Shown piece after piece: positions 4,452 through 40,920 of a DNA stretch of 50,958 nucleotides. The stretch's first letter is position 1. Each line of letters opens with the position of its first letter. This stretch comes from Pseudomonadota bacterium. Its GTDB lineage: Bacteria > Pseudomonadota > Gammaproteobacteria > Xanthomonadales > Xanthomonadaceae. Where the stretch lies: the NCBI GenBank assembly GCA_963205415.1, contig CAUJJS010000142.1, positions 1 to 50,958 on the forward strand, in the 5' to 3' direction. The position numbers and the translations under genes are program-made. Under the pieces are notes generated by a model that saw only the letters and a list, made by a program, of their open reading frames with translations, had not been told where the DNA came from and searched no databases.

Positions 4452-7418
4452 TCACGAAGCCGCCAGTCCGGCGCTGATGATCGCGTGGACGGAGGCCGGA
4501 CGCGCCAGCAGAAAGCCTTGTCCGCTCACCTCGCCCAAACGCTTGACTTGTTCAAGCTGACTCGCGGTCTCGATGCCTTCGGCGATGACTTCCAGCCCGA
4601 GTTCATGACCCAAAGCATGGATGGCGCGCAGCAAGGTTGGAGCATTGGCCCGCAAGGGATTGTCGAGCGGGTCGATGAAGGATCGGTCGATCTTGATCGC
4701 CTGCAGCGGAAACTGATGCAGATAGCTGAGCGATGAGTAGCCGGTGCCGAAGTCATCCAGCGCAATCGACATGCCGTAGCGACGCATTTCGTCCATCACC
4801 ACGCGACTTTGCCGTGGGTCTTCCAGCAGTGCGCTTTCGGTGATCTCGATGCGCAGTTGGGCCGGATTGAAGCCCGCAGCGTCCAGACGACGCAGCAGGG
4901 TATCGACGAACAGCGGTGTCCGCAGATGCCGCGCGCCGACATTGATGCCGAGATAGGCCTGGCTGCCCAGGAGCGGTTCGGCCAAGGCGAACGCGGCCTC
5001 ATAGACCTGCCAGTCGAGCGATTCCACCAAACCGGACTCTTCCGCTTGCGCCAGAAACCGCGCCGGCTCCACCACACCGTGCTGCGGATGCCGCCAGCGC
5101 ATCAGGGCCTCGAATCCCACCACCTTGCCACTGCCCAGTGCGAAGATCGGCTGGAACACCGGCTCGAACTCACGTCGCGCAAGACCGCGCCGCAATTGTT
5201 CTTCCGTTTCCACCTGCAGCAAGACCTGACGCCGCAGGTCCTCATCGAACACCTCGAAACGATGCCGGCCGCGGGCCTTGGCCCGATACAAGGCGGCATC
5301 GGCATCGCGCAGCAGTTCTTCGGCCGTGCGGTAGTGCGTCTGCACGAACGCAATTCCAATGCTGACCGAACTGAAAATATCCTTGCCGGCAATGCGCATC
5401 GACTCATCCATCGCGGCAATGATGCTGTTGGCAACGTCGGTTGCGCGCGCACGCGCCATGCCGGCATCCAACAAGATTGCAAATTCGTCTCCCCCCAGTC
5501 GCGCGATCACGTCGCCGCCTTCCAATTGCAACCTAATGCGGGTGCCGGCCAGCTTGAGCAGCTCGTCCCCGACCAGATGGCCGAGCGAATCGTTGATGAC
5601 CTTGAATCGATCCAAATCAAGAAACAGCACGGCAAACTCGGCACGGGTATCGCGACGGTACGAATCCAGTGCCTGAGACATGCGTTCCAACAGCAAGGTC
5701 CGATTCGGCAAACCGGTCAAACCATCGTGCAGCACCGCGTGACGCAAGCGACGTTCTGCCAGTTCGCGTTCGGATATCTGATCGCGCAAGGTGTTGTTGA
5801 TCGTGGACAAGGCCTCGGTTCGCTCGGCGACGCGACGCTCCAGATTGACGTTGGCTTCACGCAGCGAATCCGCCTGTTGTTTGCGCTGCAGCGCATTGGC
5901 GATGTGATAGGAGACGAAGATCAGGATGTCCTGATCGCGCTGGTCGTAATGATGGCTGTCGTCGTAGCTCTGCGTCGCCATCACGCCCACGGCGCGCTCG
6001 TCGTAGATCAAGGGCACGCCGAGCCAGGTCATGGACAAAGCGCCAATCGACTGCAACTCGCCACACGCCTGCAGGTGCGCAATGGCGGCGCGATCGGCCA
6101 GCAAAGGTTTGGCAGTACGAAGGACATACTCGGTCAGCCCCCTTTTCAGGGTGCGCGAGGGGCGTACCGGCTCACGCTCGTCGACCGAATACGGAAAATG
6201 CAAATGCTCTCCATCGTCCGAGAGCAAGGCAATGTAAAAGTTGCGCGCTGTCACCAACTCGCCGATCACACCGTGCAGGGACTCGTAAAAGCTCGTAAGA
6301 CTGCCGCCGGTGGAGCCCAGTTCGGCGATCTTGAACAAGGCGGCTTGCAGGCGTTCCGCACGTTCACGCTCGGCAATCTGCAAACGCAATGCATCGTTGG
6401 CTGCACGCAACTCCTCGGTGCGTGCCCGTACGTGCTGCTCCAGACGCTCGTGCGCACGCAGTCGCTCGAGGGCCGTGGCGACGTGCTGGGCCACGAAGGT
6501 CAACAAGGCCCGATCCTTGTCCGCGTAGTGCCGCAACGGGTCGTAACTTTGCACAACCAGAGCACCAAAAGCTTGGCCTTTGCGTAGCAACGGCACGCCG
6601 AGCCAATCCTCACAATGCGGGCCATAGCCTTCTGCCGGAAGATGGTTGTCGACCAGCAGCTTTTCGGATGCACCCATCAGGGTCTTGCCGTGCTCGATCA
6701 CCCACCAGGTCAAGGAGCCGTGCCATTCTTCCACTGCATAGACCGTACCCTCGTGCTGTTCGTCATCTCGACAATCACGGAAGTACGGCAAGGTGATCAG
6801 CTGGTTTTCAGCGTCGTAGAGCGCGATGAAAAAGTTCTCGGCATAGGCGAGTTCGGCCACGATGACATGGATGCGATGCAGGACTTCCTCCATGTCACGC
6901 TCACCGCTCGCCAGATCGGCGATCTGGTAGAGCGCGCGCTGGAGTTTCTCGGCCTCAGCCAGTTGGCCCATCGCCAGGTGCAGGCGCTCCATTTCCAGCG
7001 CATCGGGGAGCCGGTGCGCGAGCAGGTCGCATGCCTCAGCAAATTTCTCGTCGGCGCCATGATGGCTGCCATCGAAAAATCGACTGACCAATACACCCAA
7101 ACGATTGCCTGATTCTTGCAGGATTCGCGCCGACCATGCCTCGCGCGTCACGCTCTGATCACCGTCCCAGCACGCGTGCGCGAGGGTCGTGGCGACAGCC
7201 GTGTCAAATTGCCCCACCCCATCGCAGCACCGCAGCTCCCCGTCGGGCGACATCACGAACAAGGCATGCCCAACGACCGCTGCGTGAGGCTGTGACCACG
7301 CCAGCAAGGATTCCAGCAAGGTTCGAACACGATTGCCCGCGAGCAACAGCGTACTTCGGGCGAGACCGGGCCCTGGCTGAGCCAGCCGTGGTGCGGCATT
7401 GGCATTGGCTTCTTGCAT
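4452..7418 (-). CDS. GAF-GAF-GGDEF-EAL cyclic di-GMP protein
   Basis: 988 residues from the ATG at 7418 (MQEANANAAPRLAQ); the ribosome site is weak, and an in-frame ATG 51 bases upstream is an alternative. Residues about 30-150 look like a degenerate GAF domain, followed by clear GAF domains at about 165-320 and 375-525, each with a following coiled coil. The GGDEF domain (about 570-735) has LGGDEFAILLD intact but no RxxD inhibitory site at the usual place. The EAL domain (about 745-985) keeps FEALMRW, EITES, LDDFGTGYSSLSYL, IKIDRSF and AEGIE, so phosphodiesterase activity is plausible. There is no membrane segment, so it senses cytoplasmic signals. Whether it makes or breaks cyclic di-GMP cannot be decided from sequence. 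Confidence 0.93.
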   Translation of the reverse strand: MQEANANAAPRLAQPGPGLARSTLLLAGNRVRTLLESLLAWSQPHAAVVGHALFVMSPDGELRCCDGVGQFDTAVATTLAHACWDGDQSVTREAWSARILQESGNRLGVLVSRFFDGSHHGADEKFAEACDLLAHRLPDALEMERLHLAMGQLAEAEKLQRALYQIADLASGERDMEEVLHRIHVIVAELAYAENFFIALYDAENQLITLPYFRDCRDDEQHEGTVYAVEEWHGSLTWWVIEHGKTLMGASEKLLVDNHLPAEGYGPHCEDWLGVPLLRKGQAFGALVVQSYDPLRHYADKDRALLTFVAQHVATALERLRAHERLEQHVRARTEELRAANDALRLQIAERERAERLQAALFKIAELGSTGGSLTSFYESLHGVIGELVTARNFYIALLSDDGEHLHFPYSVDEREPVRPSRTLKRGLTEYVLRTAKPLLADRAAIAHLQACGELQSIGALSMTWLGVPLIYDERAVGVMATQSYDDSHHYDQRDQDILIFVSYHIANALQRKQQADSLREANVNLERRVAERTEALSTINNTLRDQISERELAERRLRHAVLHDGLTGLPNRTLLLERMSQALDSYRRDTRAEFAVLFLDLDRFKVINDSLGHLVGDELLKLAGTRIRLQLEGGDVIARLGGDEFAILLDAGMARARATDVANSIIAAMDESMRIAGKDIFSSVSIGIAFVQTHYRTAEELLRDADAALYRAKARGRHRFEVFDEDLRRQVLLQVETEEQLRRGLARREFEPVFQPIFALGSGKVVGFEALMRWRHPQHGVVEPARFLAQAEESGLVESLDWQVYEAAFALAEPLLGSQAYLGINVGARHLRTPLFVDTLLRRLDAAGFNPAQLRIEITESALLEDPRQSRVVMDEMRRYGMSIALDDFGTGYSSLSYLHQFPLQAIKIDRSFIDPLDNPLRANAPTLLRAIHALGHELGLEVIAEGIETASQLEQVKRLGEVSGQGFLLARPASVHAIISAGLAAS

Positions 7419-36112: not shown

Positions 36113-36375
36113 AAGATTCAAATGCATGACGCTTGACTGTGAAACCTCATCACGCGACGAACGCCCCCACCAAGCGCCACGAAAGCCGGAGCGGCTCACC
36201 TTGCGCGTCCAACACTAGGGCCCAACGACAGACCATTGCGTTTTGTCATTGCATTTGCGCCATGCATTTGCGCCATGCGTTTGTGCTAGTGTTGCACACT
36301 GAAATTGAAACAGGCTGGCGTAGCTGCGCGTCGTAACGGAGAAGCGGCGCCCAACATTCAAGCGAGGGGAATGCG
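36113..36375 (+). promoter_or_regulatory. Leader and control region of the borosin operon, no gene seen
   Basis: About 260 bases between the upstream hairpin and the precursor gene. It has no convincing coding frame. It holds four imperfect direct repeats and a flanking dyad (36210-36294), followed by about 80 bases of leader. I could not choose a -35/-10 pair with confidence. Confidence 0.5.
36210..36294 (+). repeat. Four 13-14-base direct repeats framed by a 9-bp inverted repeat
   Basis: Units are CATTGCGTTTTGT (36234), CATTGCATTTGCGC (36247), CATGCATTTGCGC (36261) and CATGCGTTTGTGC (36274). CAACACTAG (36210-36218) and CTAGTGTTG (36286-36294) are exact reverse complements on each side. The spacing of 13-14 bases is a little over one helix turn. 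Placed 80-140 bases before the precursor start, this could be a regulator-binding array. Confidence 0.6.
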
Positions 36376-36594
36376 GTGTCGAAACTTCTGGATTTCATGC
36401 GCGAACTGGGGCGCAACGCGTCGCTCGCGGCCGAATACACCCAAGATGCGGATGCAGTGATGCGACGGGCCGGCTTGTCCGACGAAGAGCGTACCGCCAT
36501 GCTCGAAAAGGACTACGCCACCATCAAGCGCCTGAGCGGCCTGAGCGATGGCCAATTCGCCACCAATCACATCATCACGGCATACGACCGATGA
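36376..36594 (+). CDS. Split-borosin RiPP precursor peptide (SonA-like)
   Basis: 72 residues from a GTG at 36376 with GAGGGGA five bases upstream. Residues 1-55 form the helical borosin-binding domain: LLDFMRELGRNASLAAEYTQ, DADAVMRRAGLSDEERTAML, DYATIKRLSG. It parallels SonA of Shewanella (a five-helix leader of the pattern FxxLGxDAxLxxxYxxxPxAVMRxxGLxxE). The last 15 residues, DGQFATNHIITAYDR, would be the core, with the hydrophobic HIIT at 65-68 where SonA carries its methylated Leu/Val/Ile stretch. The helical part also resembles LigA-like domains, the label an automatic pipeline might give. The methyltransferase gene begins 14 bases later. Recognition is from remembered family sequences; methylation sites are inferred. 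Confidence 0.88.
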   Translation: MSKLLDFMRELGRNASLAAEYTQDADAVMRRAGLSDEERTAMLEKDYATIKRLSGLSDGQFATNHIITAYDR

Positions 36595-36608
36595 TTTGAG
36601 GGGGTACG

Positions 36609-39131
36609 GTGGTGCGGGCTCGGAATGTTCTGCTGACTGCCAGCCTTGTGCTCCTGACCACCGGGGCATGGGCCGCGGCGCAGCTACCGGAGCTTGGCGC
36701 AACCGCGCACGCGCCTCCCATCGAAACCCCGTCGCCGCAAACGCCCTCGCCAAGGTCATCTGATTCCACTCCGGACTCGACCCAAGCCGGTAGCAGCGAA
36801 TCGGATGAGCAAGCCTACCAACGCCTCTGGGAAATGGCCGTTAGCGGCCAGCAACAGAAGTCGCTCGACGGCCTGAACGCGCTCCTCGAGCGCGAGTTGT
36901 CGCCCAAGCTTCGCACCCGCATCTACTCCACCGCCATCGCGATCACCGGCAATATCGAAGACTGGACCGAGGCCTTCAAGTGGCTTCGCCGTGGCATGGC
37001 CGACCTCCCCGATGACAAGGCGTCCACCGCGAGGCTGTTGGCCACGGCTGCCTATCTCCACACCTTGGCCGGCTCGACCGATCGGGCTCGCGAACTTGGG
37101 CGTCAAGCCCTCGCCATGGCCGAAGAAAGCGGCGATCGGGCAGTTCTGTGCCGGGCATTGTCGCCACTGGCTCTGGGCGAGGCGATGGCCGAGCGCTACG
37201 CCGAGGCGGAAGCCTATCGCCGACGCCAGGTGGAGGTCTGTGAAAGCGTGGGTGATGAGGTCTACGCTGCCAATGGCTTGTTCGGCATCGGGAGTGCGGC
37301 GCAGGCACGGGGCCGCAACGAAGAGGCGCTGGCTTGGGGCGAACGCGCCCTGGCCCTAGCGCGCAAAGCTGATTTCGTGGATGGCGTCCACGCCGCTGAG
37401 CTCTTGATCGCCCATTGCCTGATCAGCCTGGGGCGGCAACCCGAGCGTGCCGAGGACCTGCTTGCCTCCAGCCTGCGCTACTACAGCACCGACAATCCTT
37501 CGGCGTCCTCCCTGTCGGAAGTGGGTGCCCTTTGGTCGCAGCTGACCGAACGGCGCGGAGACGCGGCCGGTGCGCTGATCCACCTGCAAGAAGCCATGGC
37601 CCAGACCAAGGAGGCCGAGCGCAATGCGCGCGCGCGTCAGCTTGCCTTTTTGCAGGTGCAGTTCGACACCCAGCTCAAGGAACAGGAAATCAGTCTGCTG
37701 AAGGCCGAGAAAGACCTGGCCGAAGTGCGCGCCGACTCCAATCGCAAGACGCAATGGCTGCTCTTGCTCGGTGTCGGTGGTTTGGCGATTGCAGCGGCCT
37801 TGCTGATCATCTTGTTGCGACGCAGCTTCCGTGATCGGCAAAGGTTTCGCTGGCGCGCCGAACACGACAGCCTGACGCAGTTGTACAACCACCAGCAGAT
37901 GCTCAAGGTCGGCGAATCGACCATGGCCCGCGCCTTGCAGCACAAATGCCCGTTTACCGCCGTTGCCATCGACATCGACTTGTTCAAGGAGGTCAATGAC
38001 TCCTATGGCCACGAGGCAGGTGATGAAGTGCTACGCCAGCTTGGCACATGGATCGCGATGGCCATCGATGACAACGCCATTGCCGCACGTCGGGGTGGCG
38101 ATGAGTTCATGATTCTCATGGAAGGCGACGTGATCCAGGCTGAGGCCATGCTGCAGAAATTGCGCGCGCTCATCGGTCCGGTGCAGTCGCTCGGCCAGAG
38201 CATTGCCTTCACCATCAGCGCAGGCGTCTGCCAGACCGAGGATGGTGCGAGCACGCTCACCCAACTGATGCACAACGCCGATCAGGCCCTTTATCGCGCC
38301 AAGCGCCAAGGCCGCAATCGCTCGGTCATGTTGCACGAGGACGAACCACACGCTCCGCGTCCGACCACACGTCTGGTGATCGTGGGTTGCGGCATCCAGT
38401 TCGCGCGCCATGTCAGCGAACGCACCTTGTCTGAGATCCGACAGGCTGAGGTCGTGTTCTGTCTCGCCGACAGTTTCGCCTTGGGCATGGTGCGTGAGAT
38501 GCGCCCGGACGTGATCGATCTGAGTGGCCACTACGCGAACGGCAAGGATCGCCGCCAGACCTATCGCGACATGGAAGCGGCCCTGATGCAGCCACTGCTC
38601 GATGGCAAGCAGGTCTGCGCGGTGTTCTACGGCCACCCGGGCGTCTTTGCCGACGTTCCCCACAAGGTGATGCGACAGGCACGCGCCATGGGAATCGATG
38701 CGCGCATGGAACCGGGCATTTCGGCCGAGGCCTGCCTCTACGCCGATCTGGGCATCGACCCCGGACAGCGCGGCGTGCAGTCGATGGAAGCCACGCATTT
38801 CATGGTCTACGACCGCCAACTGGATCCGGCCAGCCTGGTGTTGCTCTGGCAGGTGACGCTCACCGGCGACCTGAGTTGCACCCGCACCGAGGCCGATCCG
38901 GCAGCGCTGCGTGCCTTGGTCGATCGGCTGTTGACCTGGTACCCACCCGAGCACGAAGTGATCTTGTACGAGGCCGCCAACGTGCCGATCCAAAACCCGC
39001 GCGGCGACCGCCTGCGCCTGTGTGATCTGCCCCATGCGCACTACCGCGAGTACACCACCTTGGTGATCCCGCCGCTGGTGGAACTGCAGGCCGTCGACCT
39101 GCAATTCGTTCGCCTCGGCAAGCGCGACTGA
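36609..39131 (+). CDS. Sensor-diguanylate cyclase fused to a borosin alpha-N-methyltransferase
   Basis: 840 residues from tandem GTG codons at 36609/36612 with GAGGGGG just upstream. In order: signal peptide (1-24); Pro/Ser/Thr-rich linker (30-65); TPR-like helical repeats (about 70-335) and a coiled coil (335-378), both periplasmic; membrane helix (382-404); GGDEF domain (about 415-575) with AIDIDLFKEVNDSYGHEAGD and intact RRGGDEF (495-500), no RxxD inhibitory site; then a tetrapyrrole-methylase fold (588-836). The last part is borosin-type: LVIVGCGIQF, Tyr642/Arg648/Tyr652 with the spacing of the OphMA catalytic residues, FYGHPGVFADVPH (673-685) and EPGISAEACLYADLGIDPG (701-719). It should N-methylate the backbone of the peptide encoded just before it. 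The fusion is not one I know from described borosins. Confidence 0.9.
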   Translation: MVRARNVLLTASLVLLTTGAWAAAQLPELGATAHAPPIETPSPQTPSPRSSDSTPDSTQAGSSESDEQAYQRLWEMAVSGQQQKSLDGLNALLERELSPKLRTRIYSTAIAITGNIEDWTEAFKWLRRGMADLPDDKASTARLLATAAYLHTLAGSTDRARELGRQALAMAEESGDRAVLCRALSPLALGEAMAERYAEAEAYRRRQVEVCESVGDEVYAANGLFGIGSAAQARGRNEEALAWGERALALARKADFVDGVHAAELLIAHCLISLGRQPERAEDLLASSLRYYSTDNPSASSLSEVGALWSQLTERRGDAAGALIHLQEAMAQTKEAERNARARQLAFLQVQFDTQLKEQEISLLKAEKDLAEVRADSNRKTQWLLLLGVGGLAIAAALLIILLRRSFRDRQRFRWRAEHDSLTQLYNHQQMLKVGESTMARALQHKCPFTAVAIDIDLFKEVNDSYGHEAGDEVLRQLGTWIAMAIDDNAIAARRGGDEFMILMEGDVIQAEAMLQKLRALIGPVQSLGQSIAFTISAGVCQTEDGASTLTQLMHNADQALYRAKRQGRNRSVMLHEDEPHAPRPTTRLVIVGCGIQFARHVSERTLSEIRQAEVVFCLADSFALGMVREMRPDVIDLSGHYANGKDRRQTYRDMEAALMQPLLDGKQVCAVFYGHPGVFADVPHKVMRQARAMGIDARMEPGISAEACLYADLGIDPGQRGVQSMEATHFMVYDRQLDPASLVLLWQVTLTGDLSCTRTEADPAALRALVDRLLTWYPPEHEVILYEAANVPIQNPRGDRLRLCDLPHAHYREYTTLVIPPLVELQAVDLQFVRLGKRD

Positions 39132-39198
39132 GCGGCGTCCCGTATCGGCCGCTAACATCGTCGACCTGATCCACGTGCTGTCATTGCCCGGTACTCCC

Positions 39199-40920
39199 AT
39201 GCACATTCTTTCGGCCGGCATTGCCGAACGCATCCGCGACGGTTTTGCTGATTACCACGCGCGTTTTGCCGCTATCACCCGTCGCGCCAAGGGGCGCTTC
39301 GAACAGCGCGATTGGGGCGCGATGCGCAGCGATCTGGTCGAGCGCATCGAACTCTACGACGTGTGCGTCAAGCAGATGCAGGATTGGCTGGCACAGGTGC
39401 TGGCCGAACGCGCACAGGATCGGGTGCTGTGGAATCGCATCCGCGATGCTTACGCCGAGGCGGTCGAACAGCTCCTTGATCGCGAGTTGTACAAGACCTT
39501 CTTCAACACCCTCACACGTCGCTTCTTTCGTACCCACGGCGTTGACCCTTCCATTGAGTTCGTGGCACTCGACATCGAACCCACCGATCAAATCACCCAC
39601 CCGGTGGCGCGCCACAGTCATGCCATCCATGGTGAATTGGCGGCGGTGTTCGAGCGGGTGTTGGTGGGCTATCACTTCGCGGTGCCCTACGCCCACCCGC
39701 AGGCCTGTGCCGAAGCGATGGCGCATACCGTGCGGCAACGTTTTGCTGCCTGGGGCGATACTCCGCTGGTGCAGATCGAACTATTGGAAACGGTGTTCTA
39801 CCGCGAGCAGCGCGCCTATCTGGTCGGGCGCGCTCTGGGCGAGTTCCACTACACACCCTTGGTCATCGCACTCGCCAATGGCCCGGACGGCTTGGTGGTG
39901 GATGCGCTCCTGACCGAGCGCGATCACGTGGCGCAATTGTTTGGCTACACCCGCAGCCATTTCTTTGCTGATTTGCCGACGGTGGGCAATGCCGTGGTCT
40001 TCTTGCGTGCCTTGTTGCCGCACAAGCCGCTGGACGAAATCTACACCGTGCTGGGTCGCGCCAAGCAGGGCAAGACCGAGCGTTACCGCGCCTTCTTCCG
40101 GCATTTGGAACACCGCCCGAACGAGCCGTTCGTGCATGCGGATGGCGAACGCGGCATGGTGATGTTGGTGTTCACCCTGCCCTCGTGGCCATTGGTGTTC
40201 AAACTGATCCGCGATCGCTTCGCCTATCCCAAGGAAACCGCGCGCGAGGACGTGCAGGCCAAGTACCGGATCGTGTCACGCCACGATCGTGCGGGGCGAC
40301 TGGTGGATGCACAGGAGTTTCGTTTCCTGCGATTCCCGCGCCGCCAGTTTGCCCCCGAGCTTCTGGATGAACTTTTGGAAAGTTGCAGCGAGATCGTGCA
40401 ACTGGAAGGCGATGATGTGGTCATCGGCCACTGCTATGTCGAACGCCGTCTGCGACCTTTGAACCTGTACTTGAAGGAAGTCAGCGCCGACGACGCCCTG
40501 CGCGCGGTGATCGATTATGGGCAGGCGATTCGTGACCTCGCCCGCAGCGACATTTTCCCGGGCGACCTCCTGCTCAAGAACTTCGGCGTCACCCGCAATC
40601 ATCGCGCCATCTTCTACGACTACGACGAGCTGTGCCTGGTGAGCGAATGCCAATTCCGCAGCCTGCCCAAGGCCCGCAATGACGACGAGGAAATGAGCCA
40701 TGGCGCGTGGTTTCATGTCGGCGCCAACGATGTGTTTCCCGAACAGTTTCCGCAATTTCTCGGGCTCACCGACGCCCAGCGTGACGCATTGATCCAGACC
40801 CATGGCGACATCTTCGATGTGCGCTGGTGGTGGTCACTGCAGGAAGCCCTGCAACAGGATTCAGCGTGCGAGGTCAATCCCTATCCCGACGGTGCAAGGC
40901 TGCTGCCGATCGCACGCTAA
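39199..40920 (+). CDS. aceK: Isocitrate dehydrogenase kinase/phosphatase
   Basis: 573 residues from the ATG at 39199 (MHILSAGIAERIRDGFADYHARF), near the 578 of E. coli AceK. The regulatory N-terminal half has RFFRTHGVDPSIEFVALDIEP; the kinase-like half has VFTLPSWPLVFKLIRDRFAYPKE with the ATP-binding Lys, CYVERRLRPLNLYLKEV, and DIFPGDLLLKNFGVTRNHRAIFYDYDEL with the catalytic Asp region. The enzyme switches isocitrate dehydrogenase off and on to steer carbon into the glyoxylate bypass. aceA and aceB are not in the window. It lies 67 bases after the borosin gene on the same strand, but nothing links the two in function. Confidence 0.97.
   Translation: MHILSAGIAERIRDGFADYHARFAAITRRAKGRFEQRDWGAMRSDLVERIELYDVCVKQMQDWLAQVLAERAQDRVLWNRIRDAYAEAVEQLLDRELYKTFFNTLTRRFFRTHGVDPSIEFVALDIEPTDQITHPVARHSHAIHGELAAVFERVLVGYHFAVPYAHPQACAEAMAHTVRQRFAAWGDTPLVQIELLETVFYREQRAYLVGRALGEFHYTPLVIALANGPDGLVVDALLTERDHVAQLFGYTRSHFFADLPTVGNAVVFLRALLPHKPLDEIYTVLGRAKQGKTERYRAFFRHLEHRPNEPFVHADGERGMVMLVFTLPSWPLVFKLIRDRFAYPKETAREDVQAKYRIVSRHDRAGRLVDAQEFRFLRFPRRQFAPELLDELLESCSEIVQLEGDDVVIGHCYVERRLRPLNLYLKEVSADDALRAVIDYGQAIRDLARSDIFPGDLLLKNFGVTRNHRAIFYDYDELCLVSECQFRSLPKARNDDEEMSHGAWFHVGANDVFPEQFPQFLGLTDAQRDALIQTHGDIFDVRWWWSLQEALQQDSACEVNPYPDGARLLPIAR

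Follow-up and report, generated by a model that had tools for sequence, protein, structure and literature searches.

A split-borosin locus with a SonM-type methyltransferase fused to a TPR-GGDEF sensor, and its possible role in peptide signalling

Borosins are ribosomally synthesized and post-translationally modified peptides (RiPPs) with N-methylated backbone amides, and their types V–X are said to have been defined in Imani 2022 and Cho 2022. Receptors for peptide pheromones that are built from tetratricopeptide repeats (TPRs) are known from the RRNPP family of Bacillota; these are cytoplasmic and mostly DNA-binding, and their peptides are unmethylated. Borosin types 0–X have been reviewed and a type XI added (PMC11395268), and the legend of Figure 1 of that review lists 'GGDEF, GGDEF-sequence-containing domain' among borosin architectures. 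In SonM, the methyltransferase of the borosin of Shewanella oneidensis, residues Y58, R67 and Y71 stabilise the deprotonated amide (PMC8429565). In RcbB of Vibrio vulnificus, the cyclase is repressed by the TPR domain joined to it until a partner lifts the repression (PMC12282931). Here we describe a locus at positions 36376-39131 of a 50,958-nucleotide stretch of DNA (the window; contig CAUJJS010000142.1, family Xanthomonadaceae), in which a small SonA-like precursor gene is followed by a single gene for a TPR sensor, a GGDEF domain and a SonM-type methyltransferase. We propose, with a rough probability of 0.42, that the peptide, predicted to be backbone-N-methylated, is read as a signal by the TPR sensor encoded beside it, and that this sensor probably responds through cyclic di-GMP. 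The proposal is drawn from related loci, where precursor and sensor stay together, the methyltransferase switches side or is fused, and the output domain is exchangeable. The features of the locus are as follows.

36376..36594, plus strand: SonA-like precursor of 72 residues, GTG start; binding domain at residues 3-54 (five helices) and a C-terminal tail, GQFATNHIITAYDR, the predicted core.
36609..39131, plus strand: fused sensor-diguanylate cyclase-methyltransferase of 840 residues, GTG start, 14 bases from the precursor frame; from Pfam, homologues and AlphaFold2.
36609..36680, plus strand: signal-peptide-like N-terminus, residues 1-24, by a hydropathy rule; model helix 2-24.
36804..37553, plus strand: TPR solenoid, predicted to be periplasmic, residues 66-315.
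37563..37730, plus strand: long helix, likely a coiled coil, residues 319-374 of the AlphaFold2 model, in which the predicted local distance difference test score (pLDDT) drops toward the helix end.
37755..37817, plus strand: membrane helix, residues 383-403, sequence WLLLLGVGGLAIAAALLIILL, by hydropathy.
37857..38321, plus strand: GGDEF diguanylate cyclase domain, residues 417-571, with intact catalytic motif and without the RxxD I-site.
38370..39116, plus strand: SonM-type peptide backbone N-methyltransferase domain, residues 588-836, activity predicted.

The original prediction, made from the bare sequence, had described a 72-residue precursor-like gene and a long frame 14 bases on, and both sets of coordinates were confirmed. 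By inspection, a GAGGGG stretch closely precedes each frame. A signal-like start, TPRs, a membrane helix, an intact GGDEF and a C-terminal methylase had been read into the long frame, and Pfam (TPR_12, E 1e-12; GGDEF at 417-571, E 2.6e-37; TP_methylase at 588-790, E 7.8e-17) and AlphaFold2 agree. In the model, the TPR solenoid (pLDDT about 90-98) is followed by a long helix, after which come a hydrophobic helix and two C-terminal domains. The mean pLDDT is 81.6 and the predicted template modelling score 0.47, the methyltransferase being partly at lower confidence.

Searched against the PDB, the methyltransferase part matched SonM at E 3e-66, OphA at E 2e-39 and the best corrin methylase at E 0.018, and an ordinary corrin methylase was rejected on these values. 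Similarity to SonM was also found when the fold of residues 588-836 was compared, as the original prediction had proposed (Foldseek against 7ltr, E 6.7e-18, 46% identity). In the alignment, Y58, R67 and Y71 of SonM correspond to Y642, R648 and Y652 of the fused protein, and these positions are unchanged across 65 aligned fused sequences. The precursor matched SonA in the PDB over residues 1-62 (E 3e-9). AlphaFold2 models it as five helices, the last ending at residue 54, and an unstructured tail, and superposition with the borosin-binding domain of SonA gives 1.0 Å over 54 columns with 44% identity; the Foldseek match to SonA (E 4e-3) would back up the sequence match rather than stand alone. 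Pfam LigA scored 24.4 bits, below its cut-off of 25.3, and 144 homologues of the precursor were found. The locus thus holds what marks a split borosin: a SonM/OphMA-family alpha-N-methyltransferase that retains the three SonM residues, and a separately encoded precursor with a borosin-binding domain and a C-terminal tail, which we infer to be the core peptide. The earlier view of the two genes as a split-borosin pair is therefore backed by the sequences, by the predicted fold and by the conservation of catalytic residues, the methylation itself being predicted.

The GGDEF domain has the intact motif of cyclic-di-GMP synthases and is predicted from its sequence to make cyclic di-GMP. The diguanylate cyclase motif and the metal- and GTP-binding residues are present in the window protein and kept in 117 aligned fused homologues, as GGDEF in 114 and GGEEF in 3. 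A motif search of the window domain gave no RxxD inhibitory I-site at what we take to be its usual position. This site is often present in diguanylate cyclases and is not required.

A search with the methyltransferase part returned 324 homologues at E <= 1e-5, and among the best 120 of them all (120/120) matched the TPR, GGDEF and methyltransferase profiles. Organism or group labels are attached to 13 of these best 120: six Luteimonas, three Pseudoxanthomonas and four others, which include two metagenome bins labelled Sphingomonadales and Rubrivivax. A SonM-like match was found in 132 of 395 sampled genomes of the window's family. Copies with at least 65% identity number 31 in these genomes, the window's own included, and all lie in open frames of at least 579 residues, the remaining copies being 38-53% identical and mostly in frames of about 256-350 residues. 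The fused copies fetched are spread over three families (f1, f11, f12) of the order, and a contig scan of named relatives gave one locus, in Luteimonas mephitis. A survey of the neighbours of TP_methylase domains C-terminal to GGDEF, suggested with the original prediction, placed a precursor upstream in 34 of 35 fused loci and in 20/20 fused regions of a first set; the one locus without it, L137, sits at a contig start that cuts into the gene. In L134 (genome G305) the TPR part runs over two frames, perhaps through a frameshift or sequencing error; the locus is classed as fused, with GGDEF and methyltransferase in one frame.

An assembly error that joined two genes, or a tetrapyrrole methylase unrelated to peptides, would reduce the locus to an artefact or a misreading, and the source genome is fragmentary (273 contigs, 85.5% complete). 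Against this, the methyltransferase domain is far nearer to SonM than to any corrin methylase, and the same fusion recurs in relatives, in 35 loci and throughout the best 120 of the 324 homologues. An assembly error was rejected on that recurrence, which also answers the concern, raised from the start, that a sequencing error had joined separate genes; we regard an artefact or misreading of either kind as virtually impossible.

For the comparison of gene arrangements, loci were picked through similarity matches and not at random, and counts refer to the loci analysed, the window included. Left out before counting were L126 and L129 (without a methyltransferase in the stretch), L158 and L159 (2-base placeholders), the Luteimonas locus L143 and the short loci given directly by the genome search. 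The resulting 129 methyltransferase loci comprise 35 fused loci, 21 with the order precursor, diguanylate cyclase, methyltransferase (precursor-DGC-MT) and 60 with the order methyltransferase, precursor, diguanylate cyclase (MT-precursor-DGC). The rest are one divergent precursor with TPR-GGDEF (L168), three loci with a TPR-histidine kinase only (L145, L170, L174), eight without either sensor in the stretch seen and one that was not evaluable (L104, which begins 91 bases 5' of the methyltransferase). A same-strand GGDEF is thus found in a fixed slot in 116 of the 129 loci. On the opposite strand, a GGDEF lies within 4 kb in 6 of 109 loci, L168 among them, and from the 19 GGDEF matches per 3.0 Mb of the window's own genome, the chance of a same-strand neighbour within 4 kb is about a few per cent.

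The precursor lies beside the sensor in 34/35 fused, 20/21 precursor-DGC-MT and 57/60 MT-precursor-DGC loci (111/116 overall), so that precursor and sensor are adjacent whichever side the methyltransferase takes. It is missing from the expected slot in L137 (contig end), L116, where it lies 3' of the methyltransferase and ahead of a second TPR-GGDEF, L144, where it lies beside a TPR-kinase, L165 and L172. Some loci carry additional copies: L155 has a second set of methyltransferase, precursor and GGDEF after the first, L157 has a second precursor and TPR-GGDEF after the first set, and in L074, L111, L112 and L114 an extra TPR-GGDEF lies 5' of the precursor, which is then flanked by two TPR cyclases.

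The founding SonM/SonA pair has the same neighbour. The SonM sequence was searched against 77 genomes of the genus of G1367 and matched in 67 of them. On one 4,969,811-base contig in this genus the match to SonM has 100% identity across the 244 residues of the query; this contig carries (L176) sonM, then a 71-residue SonA, then a frame encoding TPR, membrane helix and GGDEF. A TTG at the base right after the sonA stop opens a signal-peptide-like start for this TPR-GGDEF frame; its first ATG comes 48 bases later, and the signal-like sequence is then lost. From identity and gene order, we infer that the contig is S. oneidensis MR-1 and the frame SO1480. The MT-precursor-DGC order was found in 20/20 fetched loci of the genus. 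Among the fetched loci, that of the founding pair included, SonM-type operons usually have a TPR-GGDEF gene as their third member, and this partner is not specific to the fusion.

The linked cyclases are largely uniform. GG[DE]EF is present in 113/116, the DxD..FK..ND metal/GTP motif in 109/116, a hydrophobic helix ahead of GGDEF in 113/116 and a signal-like N-terminus in 109/116, the last called by a custom hydropathy rule and not by a trained predictor. The RxxD I-site was found in 0/35 fused, 0/21 precursor-DGC-MT and 38/60 MT-precursor-DGC loci. The window's own genome holds no second protein resembling the TPR part; 14 other matches cover the membrane-GGDEF end only. In four loci (L144 of genome G948, L145, L170 and L174), the gene adjoining the precursor encodes a TPR-hybrid histidine kinase with HisKA, HATPase and receiver domains, and Hpt scored above the cut-off in L174 and below it in L145. 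L144 contains both kinds of sensor, in the order precursor, TPR-kinase, methyltransferase and then a TPR-GGDEF gene; the Pfam TPR match of its kinase is narrowly under the cut-off, and our own TPR profile matches. Judged from these sequences, the GGDEF output of the TPR sensor can be replaced by a histidine kinase. Structural matches to the TPR domain were mainly eukaryotic proteins among the 50 listed, one with a bound degron peptide, and indicate a common fold only. No peptide pheromone receptor was among those 50, and other families may lie beyond them. The sensor also falls outside RRNPP, taken as cytoplasmic Bacillota TPR receptors acting on DNA or a response regulator, because it has a signal-like N-terminus, a membrane helix and a GGDEF output.

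Precursor, TPR-GGDEF and methyltransferase are three adjacent separate genes in G030 and G031, which belong to other families of the order. The TPR-GGDEF proteins have 578 and 585 residues and the methyltransferases 258 and 268, respectively, and in G031 the two genes overlap by four bases. The order methyltransferase, precursor, TPR-GGDEF occurs in 40 loci of the main set, inside the window's order and outside it. In the methyltransferase tree, the fused sequences (L104 included) form a clade with support 0.976 nested within a three-gene grade, some deeper nodes being weak; the GGDEF tree likewise groups all 35 fused domains in one clade (support 0.996). One fusion of neighbouring genes is therefore the simplest reading, and the methyltransferase tree suggests that the fused form arose in this way from a three-gene operon of precursor, TPR-GGDEF and methyltransferase. 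Distances of GGDEF and methyltransferase correlate at 0.85, as is expected anyway for neighbours inherited together.

In the 34 precursors of fused loci, the ratio of nonsynonymous to synonymous polymorphism (pN/pS) is 0.58 for residues 62-70 and 0.41 for the binding domain, with synonymous sites close to saturation. The tails look constrained rather than diversifying, and the idea that the core is more conserved than the binding domain was rejected on these values. In one large MT-precursor-DGC group, the core of the precursors is hydrophobic and their tail acidic. L140 and L162 carry two consecutive precursor genes, the tails of which differ.

If the peptide is the signal, the module could work in three steps. 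In the cytoplasm, the precursor would dock through its borosin-binding domain to the C-terminal methyltransferase, which would use S-adenosylmethionine to N-methylate amides of the tail (about residues 56-70, LSDGQFATNHIITAY). The modified peptide would then be released and cross the membrane via factors encoded elsewhere. N-methylation could perhaps help this crossing, since membrane permeability is listed among the effects of backbone N-methylation (PMC8429565). Finally, the peptide would bind the groove of the periplasmic TPR domain and, via the long helix and the membrane segment, shift the pairing of the GGDEF domains and so change cyclic-di-GMP synthesis. In relatives whose sensor is a TPR-histidine kinase, this input would feed a phosphorelay, and in the fused form the signal-making enzyme would be tethered to the cytoplasmic face of its own receptor.

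Several observations weigh against such a signal. Peptide and enzyme are predicted to be cytoplasmic and the TPR domain periplasmic, and a fusion at the cytoplasmic end is equally well compatible with coupling on the inner side of the membrane. Residues 62-70 of the tail are under somewhat weaker constraint than the binding domain. No exporter or protease is broadly conserved beside the 116 loci, although the picking of frames could miss one. In partial distance correlations over 54 loci with 499 permutations, the core co-diverges with GGDEF (0.29) and with the methyltransferase (0.28), with 0/499 permutations as high in each case. Core and TPR correlate with a partial r of 0.24 when the methyltransferase is accounted for (5/499 permutations as high), and with r 0.01 when GGDEF is accounted for as well (205/499). 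Core-TPR co-divergence, weakly positive with one covariate and gone with two, was therefore discarded as evidence of ligand binding, and this step is left without specific support from co-divergence. Furthermore, a TPR sensor is missing from the stretch seen in eight of the 129 loci (L077, L091, L146-L150, L175).

Of these eight, L077 does have a GGDEF gene on the same strand, 2.3 kb upstream, in which no TPR was matched. The methyltransferases of L091 and L146-L150 are SonM-like, at 33-39% identity, and no TPR-GGDEF gene adjoins them in the stretch seen; they may belong to other borosin types or have other functions. L175 (G1047) is a 1174-residue frame with a SonM-like domain near its N-terminus, a long further part and a membrane helix, has no sensor gene near it and is possibly a different fused borosin.

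The co-divergence of the core with GGDEF and methyltransferase, and not with TPR, fits a reversed coupling, in which the TPR domain responds to a cue from the envelope, and the GGDEF domain, through its dimer state, GTP or cyclic di-GMP, switches N-methylation of a peptide that is an ordinary effector or natural product with gated synthesis. This is close to what was first proposed for the locus, where an envelope signal and cyclic-di-GMP production were coupled to peptide methylation. In the fused form the methyltransferase is joined to the GGDEF output end and is cytoplasmic like the precursor. SonM and SonA assemble into dimers of heterodimers (PMC8429565), so that a mechanical link between the pairing of the GGDEF domains and that of the methyltransferases is conceivable. 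Gating of this kind accords less well with the arrangements, as the methyltransferase is separate in 81/116 loci and on the far side of the precursor in 60, the constant neighbour of the sensor is the precursor and not the methyltransferase, and a histidine kinase can replace the output domain, with TPR kept and GGDEF lost. We consider gating by the sensor unlikely, though a serious contender; the direction from peptide to sensor is rated somewhat higher than that from envelope signal or cyclic di-GMP to methylation, which is possible.

The binding domain co-diverges with the methyltransferase (partial r 0.44, 0/499), and docking would predict as much. The same correlation would suit a precursor that is a regulatory subunit, a SonA-like protein which, docked on the methyltransferase, determines how the GGDEF or kinase domains pair and how active they are, so that the complex acts and not a released peptide, and methylation alters its state. 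Such a subunit would need neither of the protease and exporter genes that are not broadly conserved near the loci, and the SonA binding domain alone binds SonM with an inhibition constant (Ki) of 3.9 µM (PMC8429565). The unfused loci, however, give no sign that the methyltransferase contacts the cyclase. A mature, released Shewanella borosin has reportedly been described by Crone et al. 2023, which also counts against a subunit that stays bound. Doubly methylated SonA binds SonM far more weakly, with a Ki of 160 µM (PMC8429565), and release is therefore favoured over a locked complex. A regulatory subunit is in our view decidedly unlikely. Taken jointly, sensor gating and the regulatory subunit weigh about as much as the peptide signal.

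Clustering of the neighbouring genes gave no broadly shared neighbour beyond the three parts, and the only cluster among the 22 largest that spans all arrangements held 4/116 loci. In this GC-rich DNA reverse-strand frames displace real genes in the clustering, and the sensor/methyltransferase cluster itself held only 94/116. Many RiPP clusters have dedicated sensors, and the genes are tightly spaced on one strand, operon-like. Both points would agree with mere co-regulation of a borosin natural product, the TPR-GGDEF or TPR-kinase being a pathway regulator or an envelope sensor for self-resistance and the fusion incidental. The lack of any further biosynthetic, export or immunity gene broadly shared among the loci, and the retention of the catalytic motifs of the fused form in 117 aligned homologues, make co-regulation without direct coupling quite improbable.

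The peptide-signal proposal may extend beyond this locus. SonM-type borosins of Gram-negatives might be backbone-N-methylated peptide signals and not antibiotics, each one produced by its precursor and methyltransferase and read by a dedicated periplasmic TPR sensor. This generalisation is tentative and somewhat doubtful, and the same holds, as one joint statement, for its further parts, that output runs via cyclic di-GMP or a phosphorelay and that maker and receptor have become one protein in the window's lineage.

Elsewhere in the window, a short tandem repeat, GCATTTGCGCCAT, was seen by eye at 36249-36290 (two copies and a partial one), some 90 bases 5' of the precursor start. The gene aceK, for isocitrate dehydrogenase kinase/phosphatase (39175-40920), lies on the same strand and begins 43 bases past the fused gene. 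Another GGDEF domain lies on the minus strand at 5259-5732, within a 1036-residue frame that resembles the fused protein over the membrane-GGDEF end only.

The role of SonM-type borosins for their producers is a question to which the neighbourhood offers a concrete and testable answer, as a TPR sensor with cyclic-di-GMP or kinase output is found in several families and beside the structurally characterised SonM/SonA pair, in a strain that is easily handled in the laboratory. If the proposal is true, N-methylated ribosomal peptides join the bacterial signals and the TPR sensor family gains a ligand; if the coupling is reversed, a RiPP maturase is gated by a second-messenger enzyme within the same chain. 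In open-licence full texts, borosin together with diguanylate or tetratricopeptide gave no match, and borosin together with GGDEF matched only the figure legend of PMC11395268; the excerpts of PMC11395268, PMC8429565 and PMC11285071 contain no discussion of a sensor. In this literature we found no earlier description, although one may exist, of a TPR cyclase linked to the founding pair, of the variants with a kinase or of a single fusion event. The original prediction knew of no described borosin with this architecture, and that statement is weakened by the GGDEF entry in the PMC11395268 legend; the GGDEF-methyltransferase fusion itself may already have been described.

Among known systems, SonM/SonA, a type IV split borosin, is alike in its separate precursor with a five-helix borosin-binding domain, in a methyltransferase 46% identical to ours that shares Y58, R67 and Y71, and in the TPR-GGDEF gene, with its membrane helix, directly after sonA (PMC8429565; L176). 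It differs in that the methyltransferase is a protein of its own and comes first, whereas in the window it comes last, as a C-terminal extension of the sensor, and the tails differ too (YLVISHGNGD in SonA, ATNHIITAYDR in the window precursor). OphMA-type fungal borosins use the same methyltransferase family (E 2e-39), but there enzyme and precursor form one chain, whereas the window has two chains with the enzyme joined to the sensor. RRNPP receptors are TPR receptors for small peptides as well, an analogy only, as the TPR domain of the window is predicted to be periplasmic and its output is GGDEF, or a kinase in relatives. The architecture in the figure legend of PMC11395268 resembles the fused protein, as far as that legend goes, in having a GGDEF-containing domain. 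RcbB likewise carries an N-terminal, repressive TPR domain on a GGDEF cyclase, but its partner is another TPR protein, and the available part of its description mentions no peptide precursor or methyltransferase (PMC12282931), the two components that in the window adjoin the TPR-GGDEF sensor and are fused to it, respectively.

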